NCBI GenBank assembly: GCA_902826225.1
Contig: CADEED010000006.1
Location: forward strand, 1 to 64,000
DNA length: 64,000 nt
Source of the DNA: an uncultured Pseudomonadota bacterium
Lineage (GTDB): Bacteria; Pseudomonadota; Gammaproteobacteria; Steroidobacterales; Steroidobacteraceae
Direction of reading: 5' to 3'
Part shown: in pieces, positions 53,662 through 64,000 of the stretch
Layout: each line of letters begins with the position of its first letter
Numbering within the stretch: position 1 is the first letter of the stretch
Made by a program: the position numbers and the translations under genes
Notes under the pieces: model-generated
Databases searched by the model: none
What the model was told of the DNA's origin: nothing
What the model saw: the letters and a program-made list of their open reading frames with translations, nothing else

Positions 53662-54279
53662 ATGAGCACCGTACCTGTCTATCCAAGCGACGTCGCTTTC
53701 ACCGATGCGGTTAAGGCACAGCAGACCCGGCTGGGTTCGCGGCGTGCCTACGCGCACATGGAAGAGTCTTCCGGGTGGCAGACGCGCATCACGCCTGAGC
53801 TCGAAGCATTCATCGCGGCGCGCAACAGCATGTATCTCGCGACGTCGAACGTCGCGGGGCAGCCGTACATCCAGCATCGCGGCGGGCCGCCGGGCTTTCT
53901 GCGCGTGATCGACGAGCAGTCATTCGGTTTCGCGGACTTCGCCGGGAACAAGCAGTACATCACCCTGGGGAACATCCAGGAGAACCCGAAGGCGCACGTG
54001 TTCCTGATGGACTACGCGCATCGACGGCGAATCAAGATCTGGGGAGAGCTCTCCGCGGTCGGGGGGAATGCGGAGCTCAACCAGCGGATGAAGCCGGAGG
54101 GCTACAAGGCGCGGGTCGAACGGGTGATGGTGGTGAAGGTGGCGGCCTGGGATACGAACTGCCCGCAACACATTCCGATCAAGGTGGATATCGAGGATGT
54201 GCGGGAGGCGATCGAGAGTCGGGACAAGAAGATTGCGGAACTCGAAGCGGAGTTACAGAAGCTGCGCGCTCCTGGTTGA
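53662..54279 (+). CDS. Pyridoxamine 5'-phosphate oxidase-like flavin-binding protein
   Basis: This 205-residue protein has a split-barrel FMN fold: residues ~40-165 include TPELEAFIAARNSMYLATSNVAGQPYIQHRGGPPGFLRV (as consecutive blocks), DFAGNKQYITLGNIQENPKAHVFLMDY and RRRIKIWGELS. The C-terminus is a coiled coil (IESRDKKIAELEAELQKLR). Family members reduce or bind flavins/F420-type cofactors or small ligands, and the specific reaction is unknown. High GC returns here, marking the end of the low-GC segment. Confidence 0.87.
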   Translation: MSTVPVYPSDVAFTDAVKAQQTRLGSRRAYAHMEESSGWQTRITPELEAFIAARNSMYLATSNVAGQPYIQHRGGPPGFLRVIDEQSFGFADFAGNKQYITLGNIQENPKAHVFLMDYAHRRRIKIWGELSAVGGNAELNQRMKPEGYKARVERVMVVKVAAWDTNCPQHIPIKVDIEDVREAIESRDKKIAELEAELQKLRAPG

Positions 54280-57502: not shown

Positions 57503-57784
57503 ATGTCTGAAACCACGACAATCCGTCTTCCCCCCAAGCTGCGTGCCCGTCTTCGCAGTATCGCCAAGGAGACCGACCGATCGGTCCACAGCCTCATTGT
57601 CGAGGCGGTCGAGAAACACGCCGCTTATGAAGAACAGATGCGGGCCTTCGTGAAGGACGCTCTCGACGCCGGAGAGGAGATCGATCGCACCGGCGAGGTT
57701 TATCGAGCAGAAGACGTGCACGCCTGGATGGATCGGCTCGCACAAGGCGTCGCCAGCCCCAAACCGAAGCCGTGGCGGAAGTAG
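57503..57784 (+). CDS. Ribbon-helix-helix (CopG/ParD-like) antitoxin
   Basis: This 93-residue protein begins SETTTIRLPPKLRARLRSIA and continues ETDRSVHSLIVEAVEKHAAY, a textbook RHH DNA-binding domain with the beta-strand TTTIRLPP. The C-terminal region (EEQMRAFVKDALDAGEEIDR, VYRAEDVHAWMDRLA) would wrap the toxin. It overlaps the toxin gene by 13 bp, the standard order of antitoxin then toxin. It should repress its own promoter. Confidence 0.88.
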   Translation: MSETTTIRLPPKLRARLRSIAKETDRSVHSLIVEAVEKHAAYEEQMRAFVKDALDAGEEIDRTGEVYRAEDVHAWMDRLAQGVASPKPKPWRK

Positions 57785-58065
57785 TTTATTCGCCGCGCGC
57801 GGCGGATCAGATCGAGCGCGCGATCGCGAAGTTGATTGAGACGAACCCGGCAGCAGCGATTGCCGCGGCGACGGCGATTCGCAGTGCGGTCGAGAATCTC
57901 GCGGCACATCCTCTCGTGGGGCGGCGCATCGAGGGCGATGTTCGGGAACTCGTTGTTTCGTTTGGAGCGACGGGATACATCGCGCTCTATCGATTCGCAG
58001 TCCGGCAAGGGCAAGTACAGGTTCTCGCCCTGCGACATCAGCGTGAGGTCGGCTACTTACCCTGA
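57772..58065 (+). CDS. RelE/ParE-superfamily toxin
   Basis: This 97-residue protein starts VVYSPRAADQIERAIAKLIE and has the ParE-type helices (AAAIAAATAIRSAVENLAAHPLVGR). The C-terminal strands are RELVVSFGATGYIALYRFAV and QVLALRHQREVGY, including the conserved Arg-His near the end. By family knowledge ParE-like toxins poison gyrase and RelE-like toxins cut mRNA. The ALRHQRE ending favours the ParE type. The stop codon TGA is immediately followed by a family-A REP half-site. Confidence 0.88.
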   Translation: MAEVVYSPRAADQIERAIAKLIETNPAAAIAAATAIRSAVENLAAHPLVGRRIEGDVRELVVSFGATGYIALYRFAVRQGQVQVLALRHQREVGYLP

Positions 58066-58735: not shown

Positions 58736-59446
58736 TCAGTTCAGCGACGCCATCCAGTGGCCCACCGACTCCCACGCCGGCGTCCGCGCAAACCAGGCCC
58801 GTAGCGGCCACGAGAGCACGAGCAGCGTGCCGCCGAACGCGTAGATGGGATGCACGGTCCGGTGCCGCACCCAGTCGGCCACGAGGCAGCCGATGACGAA
58901 CGCCGCGGCGATCGACGTCTGCACCGCCAGGAAGTGCACGCGCAGATCAGGCATCAGCAGCAGGATGCGCGCGACCGGCGCACCCAGCACGGCGATCATC
59001 GCGAGCATCATGAGCCGGCGATGGATGTTCGATTGCTCGCGGTAGGACACGGCGGCGGCCACGCGCACGGCGAACATTCCGATGGCCACGGTCGGCAGCA
59101 GCGTGAACTGCTCTGCCGTCATGCCCATCGGCCGCGGCCGCGTCGTCACCGCCGATACGACGGTGGCCCATAGCCCGAACACCACGACGAGCACGGCCAC
59201 CGCCACGCCTGCGACGCCGAGCCGCATGTGCGTCTGGTATGCGCGCTTCGAAATGAGCGTGGCCTGGGTCACGAAGAGCGCCACCCACACCGTGAATACG
59301 AGACTGTGCAGATGCATCAGCTTCGTGATGGGCGGGACGTCGAACCAGTAGCGCAAATAGTACGTGCGCGCGAAGGCGACGACGATGAACCCGGCCAGCG
59401 CGAGTGCCAGCACGAGATAGGAACGATTGCGAACGACCGCCGCCAT
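58736..59446 (-). CDS. Seven-helix membrane protein, paralogue 1 of 4
   Basis: This 236-residue protein has helices at about 9-30, 43-65, 75-100, 118-136, 146-166, 174-195 and 203-222. Conserved His residues shared with the paralogues are LMHLHSLVFTVWVALFVTQA (helix 2), the H before the third helix (THMRLG) and NIHRRLMMLAMIAVLGAPVAR (helix 5). Such intramembrane His pairs suggest heme or metal coordination, but no family is firmly recognised. The stop codon lies within a REP half-site. Confidence 0.75.
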   Translation of the reverse strand: MAAVVRNRSYLVLALALAGFIVVAFARTYYLRYWFDVPPITKLMHLHSLVFTVWVALFVTQATLISKRAYQTHMRLGVAGVAVAVLVVVFGLWATVVSAVTTRPRPMGMTAEQFTLLPTVAIGMFAVRVAAAVSYREQSNIHRRLMMLAMIAVLGAPVARILLLMPDLRVHFLAVQTSIAAAFVIGCLVADWVRHRTVHPIYAFGGTLLVLSWPLRAWFARTPAWESVGHWMASLN

Positions 59447-59558
59447 GACGACTCCCCGGGGATTCTGTCGCGGACGCTATCCCTGCGCGCAGGCCGGAAC
59501 AATAGCCCGCGGGAGTATTTTTCCGGATGGCCGGTTTGCCGGGTGCTTGCTGTGACAT

Positions 59559-60278
59559 CTAGATCAACCCTGCCCCCGCGCGCGCCACCCACTCGCCGAC
59601 GGGCTGCCACCATTCGGTGCGCCCCATCATCTGGCGCAGGGGCCACGACGCCAGGATGACGGCGCCGCCGATGACGTAGACCGCATGCACGCATCGCGAA
59701 GCCCGCCAGTCCGCGAGCAAACACCAGCCGAGAAACAACGCCGGGACCATCAGCTGAACCAGCGTCGCCTGCGCGCGCAGATCCAGCCACGCGATCAGGC
59801 GGGATGCGGCCGGCGCGAGCACCGCGATCATCGCCAGCACCATGAACCGCTTGTGAAGCGCGGCGCGTCGTCGCAGCGCGATTCCCAGCGCCACGAACAC
59901 CGCGAACAACGTGATCGTCGTCATCGGAATCGCCGCGAACTCGACCCCGGTGAGCCCCGACGGCCGCACCGGCCGCGCGGCCACCGCGCCCGCCGCCGCG
60001 GCGAACCCCACCGCGACGACCAGCACCGCCAATCCGACGCTCGTGTATCCCAGCTTCATGTGCAGATCGATGCGGTGATTGGCCACCAGGCGCGTCTGCA
60101 CGACGAACACCAACAGCCACGCGGTGAACACCGCGCCATGTACTTGCATGAGCACGCCGAGCGGCGGCAGATCCGACAACGGCCGCAGGTAGTAAGTCCG
60201 CGCGAACGCGATGACCACGAACGCAGTCAGCGCGATCGCGGCGACTCCAAAGAAACGGGGGCGTGCGACGGCGCTCAT
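59559..60278 (-). CDS. Seven-helix membrane protein, paralogue 2 of 4
   Basis: This 239-residue protein starts at ATG 60278, overlapping the next paralogue's stop by ATGA (60275-60278). It shares the family pattern: AFARTYYLRPLSDLPPLGVL at the first loop, MQVHGAVFTAWLLVFVVQTR, DLHMKLGYTSVGLAVLVVAV, ALHKRFMVLAMIAVLAPAAS and VHAVYVIGGAVILASWPLRQ. A longer open frame upstream is only the shadow of paralogue 3. It is co-translated with paralogue 3. Confidence 0.78.
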   Translation of the reverse strand: MSAVARPRFFGVAAIALTAFVVIAFARTYYLRPLSDLPPLGVLMQVHGAVFTAWLLVFVVQTRLVANHRIDLHMKLGYTSVGLAVLVVAVGFAAAAGAVAARPVRPSGLTGVEFAAIPMTTITLFAVFVALGIALRRRAALHKRFMVLAMIAVLAPAASRLIAWLDLRAQATLVQLMVPALFLGWCLLADWRASRCVHAVYVIGGAVILASWPLRQMMGRTEWWQPVGEWVARAGAGLI

Positions 60279-60985
60279 GAGTGCACGCCCACGATCCACT
60301 GCGCGATCGGCGTCCACCACGCCTGCATCCCCACCCACGCGCGCAGCGGAACGGACACGGCGAGCAAGCTGCCGCAGTACAGATAGGCCGGATGCACCCG
60401 CCCGCGCTTGCGCCAGTCGTCCCACCACGCCCAGGCCACGAATGCCACCGTGAGAATCACCGCGATCTTTCGCCGGGGCATGCCGAGCGGCGCGAGCATC
60501 GAGTCGAATCGCCCCGCCGCGGGCACCAGCAGCGCGAGCGTCGCGAGGAACATCAGCCGCTTGTGCCACTCCCGCTTGCGTCGCAGCGCGAGCGCGGCCA
60601 CCAGGAACACCAGGAACATCGACATGGTGCCGATCGGTACCGACAGGAACTGCAGCGGATCGCGTCCCGGCGGCGCCCGCCCTGCGGCCACGTTGGTGAT
60701 CCCCAGGTCCAGCGCCTGGGCTGCCAGCACGAACCCCACGCAGGCGGCGAAGATGCCGAGCCGCTTGTGGATGTCCGCACGGTGCGCCGCGATGAGCCGC
60801 GCCTGGGTGTAGTGGAGCGCGATCCACAGCGTGGCGAGCACGCCGTGCACGTGCGCCATCACCGTGAGCGGCGACGCGTCGAACAGGTAGCGCAGGTAGT
60901 ACGTCCGGGCGAAGCCGAGGAAGACGACGGCTCCCAGGGCGATGACCACGACGACGGGGAAGCGATTGCGGATGATGGCGTTCAT
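60275..60985 (-). CDS. Seven-helix membrane protein, paralogue 3 of 4
   Basis: This 236-residue protein starts at ATG 60985. It is first in the pair with paralogue 2 and divergent from the winged-helix/TPR regulator gene. Family landmarks are FARTYYLRYLFDASPLTVMA, HVHGVLATLWIALHYTQARL, DIHKRLGIFAACVGFVL, EWHKRLMFLATLALLVPAAG and VHPAYLYCGSLLAVSVPLRA. The intergenic region contains direct GCTTATCAT repeats that may bind the divergent regulator. Confidence 0.8.
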   Translation of the reverse strand: MNAIIRNRFPVVVVIALGAVVFLGFARTYYLRYLFDASPLTVMAHVHGVLATLWIALHYTQARLIAAHRADIHKRLGIFAACVGFVLAAQALDLGITNVAAGRAPPGRDPLQFLSVPIGTMSMFLVFLVAALALRRKREWHKRLMFLATLALLVPAAGRFDSMLAPLGMPRRKIAVILTVAFVAWAWWDDWRKRGRVHPAYLYCGSLLAVSVPLRAWVGMQAWWTPIAQWIVGVHS

Positions 60986-61041
60986 GCATCCGCAAACTAT
61001 CCACGGCGCGTCCGGGCACAATGAAAGCTCGCTTAAACGCG

Positions 61042-61070
61042 GCTTATCATTCGCTGATCGCGCTTATCAT
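61042..61070. promoter_or_regulatory. Direct repeats GCTTATCAT in the divergent promoter
   Basis: Two copies of GCTTATCAT, at 61042-61050 and 61062-61070, are spaced 20 bp start to start (two helical turns). A partial GCTTAAACG lies upstream at 61031. OmpR/CadC-type winged helices bind direct repeats of this spacing, so it is a candidate site for the adjacent regulator. The last repeat lies 9 bp before its GTG start. Confidence 0.5.
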
Positions 61071-61078
61071 CAACGCAA

Positions 61079-62551
61079 GTGACTGACCCACAACACATTC
61101 GCTTCGACGGCTGGACGCTCGATCGCACGTCCGGCGAGCTCACGCGCGACGGAAAGACGCAGCGTCTGCCGCCCCAGCCGCTCGCCATGCTGGTTGCCTT
61201 GATCGATCGCGCCGGCGAAGTCGTGACGCGCGAGGACCTGGTGAAGGTGCTCTGGCCGAAAGGCGTCGTGGATTTCGACAACAGCCTGAACGCGGCGGTG
61301 CGCAAGCTGCGCGTGGTGCTGGGCGACGACTCGGAGAAGCCGCGCTACATCGAGACGCTGCCGCGCATCGGGTATCGGTTCGTGGGGAAAGTGGAAGGCG
61401 CCTCGACGCCGGCCCCCGCACCGGACGCGCCGACGCTGGTGCCCGCTTCCTCCAAACCGCCGTGGATCTCCCGTGGACCGCTGCTCATGGCCGCTGCGCT
61501 GGTCATCATGGCCGTGCTCGCCTGGGTGAAGTGGCCGGGCGAGCAGCCGGCGCCCGCCGCCGCGACCTCCGATGTGCCGGGCAAGCCGACTCGCCGAACG
61601 ACGAACGAGCGTGCGTACGAAGCCTATTTACAAGGGACGTTCAATCGTTCGCGGCGCGACATCAACGGCAACGCGCTGTCCCTCGCCAACTTCGAGACGG
61701 CGCTGAAGGAAGACCCGTACTACGCCGACGCGTACGCGGGTCTCGCGGAGACGCTGTACGGCTCGGTGATGACTCAGCCCGCACCGCCGACCGCGCCGAC
61801 CTACGAACGCGCGAAGACGGCGGCGCTTCGCGCGATCGAGCTCGACGACCAGCTCGGTCACGGGCACGCGGCGCTGGCGCACATTGCGATGATGTACGAC
61901 CACGATTTCAAACGCGCCGAGCGCGAGAACGAGATCGCGCGCCGGCTCGACCCCGACTACTCGCGCAACTGGCACACGCTCGGTGTCATGCGCGCCTTCC
62001 AGGGCCGGCTGCCGGAGGCACTGGAGGCAATGCGGCGCGCACGCGAGATCGAGCCGATGAATCTGCTGTTCACGTCGAACTACGGCGTGCTGCTCTACAA
62101 CTCGCGGCGGTACGATGACGCGATCGCCCATGCACGAGCGCTGCTCGCGAGCCAGCCGCGGCTCGATCAGGCGCGCAGCCTGCTGATACGTTCGTTCATC
62201 GCGAAGGGTGACGTGCCGTCCGCGCTCGAGCAGCTGTCGACGCGGCACAGCGAGCAACCGCACCTGGCGGACGCGGGCTTCATCTATGCGCACGCCGGCC
62301 GGCGTGCCGAGGCGCTCGCGGAAGTCGAGCGCATCGAGCGGATGGGAAAAGACGGCAAGATCGGCGTCGGGTTCGATGTCGCGATCATCCAGGCGGCGCT
62401 GGGCGATGTGCCCGCGGCGTGCACCGCGTTGAAACGCACGGTGCGCGACCACTCGCGGATGGCTCTGTGGATGCGCTCGGATCCGCGCATGGACCCAGTG
62501 CGCGAGCAGCCCTGCTTCGCCGAAGTCGTGCGCGAACTGTACGGAGAGTGA
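61079..62551 (+). CDS. CadC-like regulator: winged helix, membrane helix, TPR repeats (copy 1)
   Basis: This is a 490-residue protein from GTG 61079. Residues 5-102 are an OmpR-type winged helix (IRFDGWTLDRTSGELTRDGK, PPQPLAMLVALIDRAGEVVTREDLVKVLWPKGVVDFDNSLNAAVRKLR, GYRFVGKV). A Pro/Ala linker leads to one membrane helix (GPLLMAAALVIMAVLAWVKW, about 133-152). Residues ~175-485 are TPR-like helical repeats outside the cytoplasm (EDPYYADAYAGLAETLYGSV, LDPDYSRNWHTLGVMRAFQGRLPEALEAMRRA). There is no receiver domain. It probably regulates the divergent membrane protein pair. Confidence 0.88.
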   Translation: MTDPQHIRFDGWTLDRTSGELTRDGKTQRLPPQPLAMLVALIDRAGEVVTREDLVKVLWPKGVVDFDNSLNAAVRKLRVVLGDDSEKPRYIETLPRIGYRFVGKVEGASTPAPAPDAPTLVPASSKPPWISRGPLLMAAALVIMAVLAWVKWPGEQPAPAAATSDVPGKPTRRTTNERAYEAYLQGTFNRSRRDINGNALSLANFETALKEDPYYADAYAGLAETLYGSVMTQPAPPTAPTYERAKTAALRAIELDDQLGHGHAALAHIAMMYDHDFKRAERENEIARRLDPDYSRNWHTLGVMRAFQGRLPEALEAMRRAREIEPMNLLFTSNYGVLLYNSRRYDDAIAHARALLASQPRLDQARSLLIRSFIAKGDVPSALEQLSTRHSEQPHLADAGFIYAHAGRRAEALAEVERIERMGKDGKIGVGFDVAIIQAALGDVPAACTALKRTVRDHSRMALWMRSDPRMDPVREQPCFAEVVRELYGE

Positions 62552-62560
62552 CGGGGCGCG

Positions 62561-62587
62561 TGGGGACAGGGGACTGTCCCCCTTTAC
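62561..62587. repeat. Short palindromic repeat, possible third REP-like variant
   Basis: TGGGGACAGGGGACTGTCCC and CCTTTAC contain the palindrome GGGGACTGTCCCC. They share the purine-rich GGGGACAG/CTTT flavour of the other repeats. It forms the stop codon of paralogue 4 (TAA at 62584-62586). Confidence 0.5.
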
Positions 62588-63306
62588 CCAAACATCCCCC
62601 GCGCAATTCGCGCAACCTCTTCCCCGATCGGGAAATACCACTCGCTGCGCCCCACCATCAGCCGCAGCGGCCACGACGCGACGATCGCGAGCCCGCCGAT
62701 CGCATACACCGGATGCACGACCCGGTACTTCCGCCAGTCATGTACCAGGCACGCGGTAATGAACAACGCCGCGCACAGCGGAATGAGCGCATCCCGATAC
62801 GCCTGCACATCCAGCAGCCGCAAAATGCGCGCCGTCGCCGGACTGAGGGATGCGATGAACCCCAGCACCATGAACCGCCGATGCAGCGCCGGCTGCTTGC
62901 GGTACACGACGCCCAGCGCGATGAACGCGCCGAACAACCCGATCGACGTGAACCCGATGATCGTGAACTGGGGCGGCTTGAGCCCGGACGGGCTCACATG
63001 ATTGGAGATGGCGGTCTGGAACACGCTGAGCACGCCCACCGCGAACACCACCAACGCGAAGACGGCGCTCAGGATCCCCAGCTTGCGGTGCAGATCGACG
63101 CGATGCGCCGCCACGAGCCAGGCCTGCGCGATGAACAGCCCCAGCCACGCGGTGAAGACGATTACGTGCGCATGCAGCAGCAGGGTCAGCGGCGGCAGCC
63201 CCGTGAACACCTTCAGGTAGTAGCTCTTCGAGAATCCGGCGATGACGAAGGCGGCGAGCGCGAACGTGATGAGCAGGTAGAAACGCGGACGGAGGACGGC
63301 GGACAT
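62584..63306 (-). CDS. Seven-helix membrane protein, paralogue 4 of 4
   Basis: This 240-residue protein starts at ATG 63306. The same landmarks as the other paralogues are present: GFSKSYYLKVFTGLPPLTLL, HAHVIVFTAWLGLFIAQAWL, DLHRKLGILSAVFALVVFAV, ALHRRFMVLGFIASLSPATA and VHPVYAIGGLAIVASWPLRL. It is divergent from a second winged-helix/TPR gene, reproducing the regulator-membrane protein arrangement seen at 60-61 kb. Its stop codon lies in a short palindromic repeat. Confidence 0.8.
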   Translation of the reverse strand: MSAVLRPRFYLLITFALAAFVIAGFSKSYYLKVFTGLPPLTLLLHAHVIVFTAWLGLFIAQAWLVAAHRVDLHRKLGILSAVFALVVFAVGVLSVFQTAISNHVSPSGLKPPQFTIIGFTSIGLFGAFIALGVVYRKQPALHRRFMVLGFIASLSPATARILRLLDVQAYRDALIPLCAALFITACLVHDWRKYRVVHPVYAIGGLAIVASWPLRLMVGRSEWYFPIGEEVARIARGMFG

Positions 63307-63407
63307 GACAGGCTCCCTGGTGAACGGCTGCCCGCAAAATCCTCCGCCGGGGGTTGTTGAGCCATTAACGAGCCCTTGGCTTCGCCTTAACTCTTTATTA
63401 TTCGCGC

Positions 63408-64000
63408 GTGGCGGCTGAAACAACCCTTCAGTTCGATGGCTGGACGGTGAATCGCGTCTCGGGCGAGATCGCGCGCGAGGATCGCACGGCGCGCCTGCCC
63501 CAGCAGCCGCTGCGCATCCTGCTCGAGCTGGCGGACCGCGCGGGCGACATCGTGACGCGCGAGCAACTCGTGAAAGCGCTGTGGCCGCAGGGCGTGGTCG
63601 ACTGCGACAACGGGCTCAATGTCGCGGTGCGCAAGCTGCTGCTGGGCCGCGACGACGTCGGCGATACCCCGAAGTACATCGAGACTTTGCCCAGGGTGGG
63701 GTACCGGTTCGTGGGCAAAGTCGGTGCCGCCAAACCCCTCGTGCGCGGTCCGCGGCCCTTGCCGGCGTGGTGGATCGTGGCGGTCATCGCCATCGGGGTG
63801 CTCTCGAGCGTCTTCGTGTGGTGGTGGCAGAGTTCTCAATCGCGGGCCGCGGCGCCCGCCGCACGGCATGTGCCGAGTCCGCGCGCGCAGGAGCTGTACG
63901 TGCAGGGCATGCACGAGCGCTCGCGTCGCGACGTCGATGCCACTGCCCTGGCGCTCGAGAAGCTCGAAGCCGCGATCAAGGAAGACCCCGAGTACGCGGA
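63408..64000 (+). CDS. CadC-like regulator: winged helix, membrane helix, TPR repeats (copy 2, runs off right edge)
   Basis: From GTG 63408, about 197 residues are visible. A winged helix spans 5-103 (LQFDGWTVNRVSGEIAREDR, LPQQPLRILLELADRAGDIV, TREQLVKALWPQGVVDCDNG, YIETLPRVGYRFVGKVG). A Pro-rich linker precedes a membrane helix (WWIVAVIAIGVLSSVFVWWW), followed by the start of the TPR region (AQELYVQGMHERSRRDVDAT). It is clearly paralogous to the 61079 gene. The C-terminus lies beyond the window. It probably controls the divergent paralogue 4. Confidence 0.87.
   Translation, partial: MAAETTLQFDGWTVNRVSGEIAREDRTARLPQQPLRILLELADRAGDIVTREQLVKALWPQGVVDCDNGLNVAVRKLLLGRDDVGDTPKYIETLPRVGYRFVGKVGAAKPLVRGPRPLPAWWIVAVIAIGVLSSVFVWWWQSSQSRAAAPAARHVPSPRAQELYVQGMHERSRRDVDATALALEKLEAAIKEDPEYA

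Follow-up and report, generated by a model that had tools for sequence, protein, structure and literature searches.

The region described here lies at the end of a 64,000-nucleotide stretch of DNA (the window; positions 1-64000 of the 77.6-kb contig CADEED010000006.1) from an uncultured bacterium of the Steroidobacteraceae, whose assembly (GCA_902826225.1) comprises 4.0 Mb in 194 contigs. Positions 58736-64814 of the contig are occupied by four genes for seven-helix membrane proteins (P1-P4) and two for membrane-anchored regulators (R1 and R2), which carry a winged helix-turn-helix (wHTH) domain and a tetratricopeptide repeat (TPR) part:

58736-59446, minus strand: P1, seven-helix membrane protein of 236 aa, terminal gene of the P3-P2-P1 run
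59559-60278, minus strand: P2, seven-helix membrane protein of 239 aa, its start lying within the P3 stop (ATGA)
60275-60985, minus strand: P3, seven-helix membrane protein of 236 aa, with R1 divergent from it
61079-62551, plus strand: R1, membrane-anchored regulator of 490 aa; wHTH at residues 27-101, transmembrane (TM) helix at about 133-151, TPR part at about 175-488
62584-63306, minus strand: P4, seven-helix membrane protein of 240 aa, with R2 divergent from it
63408-64814 of the contig (L001:6815), plus strand: R2, membrane-anchored regulator of 468 aa, cut by the window end at 64000

The reading frames of P3 and P2 share 4 nt (ATGA), and P1 begins 112 nt further on; the intergenic distance is 93 bp for P3/R1 and 101 bp for P4/R2. 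Pairwise identities among P1-P4 are about 33-49%, the closest paralogue of P2 within the genome being P4 (49%), and a search of the whole assembly found no fifth copy, P1-P4 being the full set. An earlier reading of this DNA, made from the letters and their translations (the sequence-only reading), had described four paralogous seven-helix proteins and two CadC-like regulators, each divergent from one of the paralogues. Both descriptions are borne out: the four genes are all on the minus strand, and R1 faces P3 as R2 faces P4.

None of P1-P4 reaches a Pfam or NCBIfam cut-off. Their family was sampled from 40 relatives (of which 16 matched) and from GTDB contigs (27 loci), yielding 55 pieces of open reading frames (ORFs), and the alignment comprises 51 sequences, since four pieces that came from two broken genes were omitted. 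The seven-helix ORFs concerned, in L056 (G011) and L048, are interrupted by stops or a change of frame. Within the bacterial family to which the present genome belongs, 67 of 200 genomes contain a match. The residues H47, H73, H142, F25, W54, Q61, G77, R144 and R160 (P4 numbering) are invariant (51/51), and for the three histidines this holds across several phyla, in members that are 19-49% identical to P4. As F25, W54 and Q61 lie inside the search patterns, their conservation is partly due to the way in which the sequences were selected; the three histidines are outside the patterns. H45 is kept in 37/51 sequences, and H199, which belongs to a V-H-P motif, in 35/50. The sequence-only reading had named non-conservation of the histidines in the wider family as the finding that would speak against it, and because H47, H73 and H142 are invariant this objection does not arise. 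Of the two motifs that it assigned to the paralogues, H-K/R-R is present in all four, its histidine and last arginine being invariant in the family, while H-x-H is present in three, since P2 has Q-x-H and the first histidine is the less conserved H45.

The AlphaFold2 model of P4 (34 sequences; predicted local distance difference test score, pLDDT, 94.5; predicted template modelling score, pTM, 0.90) has seven long helices and a further one at the C terminus. Averaged over the 51 sequences, net charge is +1.8 to +3.8 at the N terminus and in loops 2-3, 4-5 and 6-7, and -0.4 to +0.6 in the others, a positive-inside pattern that places the N terminus inside. By this topology H73, H142, R144 and H199 would lie at the cytoplasmic face, and H47 and R160 at the periplasmic one. 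Helix 2 carries H47 close to its periplasmic end, and helices 3 and 5 carry H73 and H142, respectively, at their cytoplasmic ends; that H73 and H142 share a membrane face follows from topology only. The motifs, which had been placed inside the membrane, thus sit at its faces and not mid-membrane. A sequence search of the PDB was at noise level (best E 0.19). Fold comparison by VIA-align gave a best Z of 9.6, with rows of G-protein-coupled receptors, helical bundles and other background, and the PDB folds listed include no cytochrome, CtaA or DUF2306 structure, a result which excludes nothing.

A distant kinship was detected by profile-profile comparison with DUF2306 (PF10067), represented by 14 proteins from related genomes: the match scored 86.5% (E 4.6e-6), compared with 0.2% when the profiles were reversed. 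The alignment by hhalign superposes H47, H73-xxx-G77, H142-x-R-x-M and R160 on conserved DUF2306 columns, as read from the same 14 relatives, and five of the 51 members match DUF2306 at E <= 0.01 (best 4.5e-4). Because the Pfam cut-offs are not reached, the seven-helix family is, on these profiles, called a distant relative of DUF2306 and not one of its members. One DUF2306 protein, PraC from a fungus, is presented as the first of its kind with an assigned function and is reported to be needed in vivo for terminal epoxidation in the pramanicin pathway, by a mechanism left open there (PMC12895699). Kinship to the heme A synthase CtaA/Cox15 (PF02628) was also considered, and gave no signal (profile 1.9% vs 0.2% reversed).

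Both regulators match the OmpR-type winged helix (PF00486), R1 with 59.1 and R2 with 43.8 bits, and the wHTH of R1 matches CadC, ToxR and OmpR domains in the PDB (CadC 5ju7, E 5.6e-10). Each has a single hydropathy peak, taken as the TM helix (133-151 in R1, 120-138 in R2), with the TPR part beyond it; the R1 model has a mean pLDDT of 65.8 and is of low confidence at 109-215, the peak included. A third winged-helix regulator with a TM helix is found at the contig end (L001:18814-19554). It shares 59% identity with R2 in the wHTH but differs from R1 and R2 beyond the TM helix, where the part available up to the contig end has no TPR match.

Divergent pairs of this kind occur at three loci, namely the window (two pairs), L025 from the same genus, and L155/L132 from another genus of the same family. 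Identity to the L132 pair is 74.6% for R2 and 73.8% for P4; to the L025 pair it is 51% for R1 and 54% for P3. The modules are of two types, R1/P3 and R2/P4, each inherited as a pair, and this genome has both. In a tree made by a quick method (values are Shimodaira-Hasegawa-like approximate likelihood ratio supports, SH-aLRT), P3 groups with L025 (99), P1, P2 and P4 with a gene of G001 (98), and P2 with P4 (91); the G001 gene is an orthologue of P1 (66%) that has a radical-SAM gene adjoining it and no regulator. As each relative has just one of the two module types, both seem to predate this genome. The earlier suggestion of amplification by duplication finds support in that R1/R2 and P2/P4 are paralogous, but the duplication of the modules would be an old one. 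Seven-helix genes are also found as tandem pairs in other bacteria (L031, L032, L033 and L039), so local duplication recurs across the family. An S9-family peptidase gene adjoins the regulator in both genomes (L001:6943-9324 and L025:1317-3353; 82.5% identical), and the order regulator/seven-helix/S9 is common to this contig and L025. Among the 79 nearest gene neighbours in the family (80 picked, minus the known L025 regulator; L042 and L059, which gave no gene calls close to the match, not counted; products <125 aa dropped; called with a home-made gene caller that lists some shadow ORFs) no common partner family was seen, the commonest shared families being TPR (6/79) and radical-SAM (3/79).

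In all four pairs (4/4), the intergenic region contains three 11-bp-phased TTA units, which run in phase into a TATNAT located 6-9 nt upstream of the start codon of the regulator. In the window these features are:

61030-61062, plus strand: three 11-bp units with a TTA-like core, candidate operator between P3 and R1
61065-61070, plus strand: TATCAT, -10-like, 8 nt before the R1 GTG
63361-63393, plus strand: three 11-bp units, the middle one degenerate (CTTG), candidate operator between P4 and R2
63396-63401, plus strand: TATTAT, -10-like, 6 nt before the R2 GTG

A -10-like element so near to four regulator starts suggests leaderless mRNAs. Within the 64-kb window the spaced motif TTAW-N7-TTAW matches twice, once per intergenic region (0.17 matches expected), and in L025 it is confined to the intergenic region; an exact match is absent from L132. 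The repeat GCTTATCAT, named in the sequence-only reading as a site to test for regulator binding, likewise has two matches in the window (0.14 expected), at 61042 and 61062. Both are before R1 and form part of the phased array, but none is found before R2, and the array was put in its place as candidate operator. A phased score was computed with one free common offset, applied alike to the background of TATNAT entries in loci with a GC content of at least 60%. It reached at least 8/9 only at the four sites (seven of 103 TATNAT entries when duplicates are counted), the other 96 entries scoring 6 or less; an earlier score, computed without the free common offset, had given 3/9 in three of the four regions. 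L132 was found after the pattern had been read, and the phased score was fixed after L132. Between the R2 region and L132, 35 of 42 positions of the array are identical, as against 14 of 53 upstream of it (Fisher p 3e-8).

From these data we infer, tentatively and at somewhat less than an even chance, an autoregulated one-component module that controls a DUF2306-like membrane protein, probably with a histidine-bound cofactor (heme or metal). P1-P4 would be small seven-helix inner-membrane proteins of a widespread unnamed family, in which the invariant histidines and arginines at both faces most likely hold a histidine-bound cofactor (heme b or metal), and the putative reaction would be redox chemistry on a membrane-dissolved substrate. 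Some members in this bacterial group would have acquired a dedicated membrane-anchored one-component activator, the TPR part of which would sense the periplasmic state as its signal, while the cytoplasmic winged helix would bind the intergenic array of three TTA repeats in 11-bp phase. The presumed sign of regulation is positive: the bound regulator would drive its own promoter, where the repeats abut the -10, and with it the divergent seven-helix gene. A more specific version, which we consider doubtful, makes the proteins a membrane oxygenase/redox family sister to DUF2306, in which three histidines across two faces hold the cofactor and each enzyme is under its own TPR sensor via a PhoB-like three-unit operator common to both divergent promoters.

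Several observations weigh against the proposed module. With respect to the protein, P4 scores 19.3 bits against DUF2306 and does not reach the gathering score of 31.6, and the PDB fold search of P4 returned no Foldseek match at E <= 0.001. Heme or metal binding by the seven-helix proteins is no more than compatible with the data. With respect to the control site, the array pattern was initially derived from three of the four regions, and autocorrelation at 11 bp, taken by itself, reaches significance in one region of three. A genome-wide scan of G000 with the three-unit pattern (<=1 mismatch) gave 2 matches compared to 3 for the reversed control and missed the R2 array; as the scan is no better than its control, it is location that backs the array, and repeats adjoining a -10 could be mere promoter. 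Finally, a survey of 71 loci, which together contain 80 ORF pieces of the family (22 of the loci, L133-L154, having a flank of at most about 1.5 kb), found a divergent membrane-anchored wHTH/TPR regulator in only three of them (four pairs), all from one bacterial family, so there is no general regulator linkage in the seven-helix family. In L046 it is a two-component response regulator that is divergent from the seven-helix gene, and in L026 a regulator is 1.15 kb off, with another gene in between. The conserved linkage expected in the sequence-only reading is therefore local, where the pair is inherited together, and not family-wide. Its broader idea of a one-component sensing unit with its target is supported in part, by the co-inherited pairs and the operator-like phased array, but does not extend to the family at large.

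Of several other explanations, one is that the seven-helix protein is not an output enzyme at all but a co-sensor of the regulator, binding a ligand or sensing redox state and gating the regulator, as LysP does for CadC, for which it is described as co-sensor (PMC5430869). Divergent pairing and co-inheritance would fit such a role, and the periplasmic TPR part and single TM helix of R1 could contact a membrane partner. However, in most members of the family the flank examined contains no regulator of this kind, and P1 and P2 are extra copies without a regulator of their own, so sensing for this regulator is not the general role of the family, and we think the explanation unlikely.

We also find improbable a role in metal handling (copper or iron) of the CtaM/DUF420 kind, without any organic catalysis. 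This possibility is raised by a collinear profile match to DUF420 (9 rows, a faulty ORF, L125, and the short L124 having been dropped) of 32.8% (E 4.6e-4), compared to 0.7% when reversed, and by sub-threshold DUF420 matches in eight of the 51 members at E <= 0.01 (best 1.5e-4); CtaM has been proposed as a copper exporter (PMC13344008). On a Sphingobium plasmid (L159:4484-6744), a homologue is encoded directly 3' of genes for a TonB receptor, PepSY and PepSY-TM, a setting that is possibly an iron or redox context. Yet the DUF420 match is far weaker than that to DUF2306, and P4, with 13.8 bits, stays below the DUF420 threshold (PF04238; 30.5 bits). Moreover, the 51-sequence alignment has no invariant Cys or Met cluster, and no oxidase or copper family is among the 25 commonest families of the 79 nearest neighbours. 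A circular permutation relative to DUF420 had been suspected from Pfam match coordinates; in a doubled-profile test the best alignment was collinear, and the idea was dropped.

There is, lastly, little to recommend the view that nothing sets these proteins apart from other hypothetical membrane proteins, their His/Arg network being structural and free of a cofactor and their local regulator a typical CadC-like one: it would suit the label "hypothetical protein" carried by all four annotated homologues among five plasmid records, the lack of conserved neighbours and the fact that conserved histidines at helix ends can be structural, but invariance of three histidines over such divergence and several phyla would exceed the usual need for helix capping, and the equivalent columns are conserved in DUF2306.

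As a bacterial sister family of DUF2306 with an equal histidine pattern, a compact and confidently modelled fold and a built-in regulator, the seven-helix proteins offer an accessible system for studying what the histidines bind and what they do. The pairs supply a concrete and testable candidate operator for membrane-anchored TPR regulators. The invariant histidines, together with the shared phased site, make the chemistry of an unnamed family amenable to experiment.

Two further loci in this part of the window may be mentioned. Beside the cluster, two ORFs that overlap each other (93 and 97 aa; 57503-58065, plus strand) match the ribbon-helix-helix family RHH_1 (19.9 bits, just below the cut-off) and the ParE toxin family (48.3 bits), and are a probable type II toxin-antitoxin pair. 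At 53662-54279 (plus strand) a pyridoxamine 5'-phosphate oxidase-family protein is encoded (PNPOx_N, 47.5 bits).

In comparison with known systems, the seven-helix family has the H, Q, H-xxx-G, H-x-R-x-M and R columns of DUF2306 in the same order, but the alignment is confined to helices 1-5, and the remainder, with the V-H-P motif, is unmatched. With DUF420/CtaM it shares the weak collinear match, including an H-R-xx-M-type motif; CtaM differs in being a smaller protein, and for the seven-helix family no link to cytochrome oxidase genes was seen. Like CadC and ToxR, R1 and R2 have a cytoplasmic OmpR-type winged helix, one TM helix and a helical part beyond it. The periplasmic part of CadC is described as an alpha-beta sandwich followed by a helical domain (PMC9214523), whereas R1 and R2 have no room for a sandwich: in R1 about 24 residues separate the TM helix from the first helix of the helical part, and sandwich strands are not predicted in this low-confidence stretch. 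Also, the gene divergent from R1 or R2 is not a cadBA-type target. The juxtaposition of genes for a membrane-bound winged-helix regulator and its membrane partner is reminiscent of VtrA/VtrC and ToxR/ToxS, but the VtrA partner is the adjacent downstream gene and a periplasmic protein of lipocalin fold (PMC9214523), while here it is a seven-helix protein, and divergent in 4/4 pairs. Among open-licence PubMed Central papers on CadC-like TPR regulators, titles and the starts of abstracts mention no such regulator/seven-helix pair. The candidate site, as read from sequence, resembles the tandem promoters bound by PhoB/OmpR-type regulators, and the period of 11 bp is also that of pho boxes. There, the direct repeats to which PhoB binds overlap the -35 region (PMC3348028); here, three TTA-core units extend into the -10.

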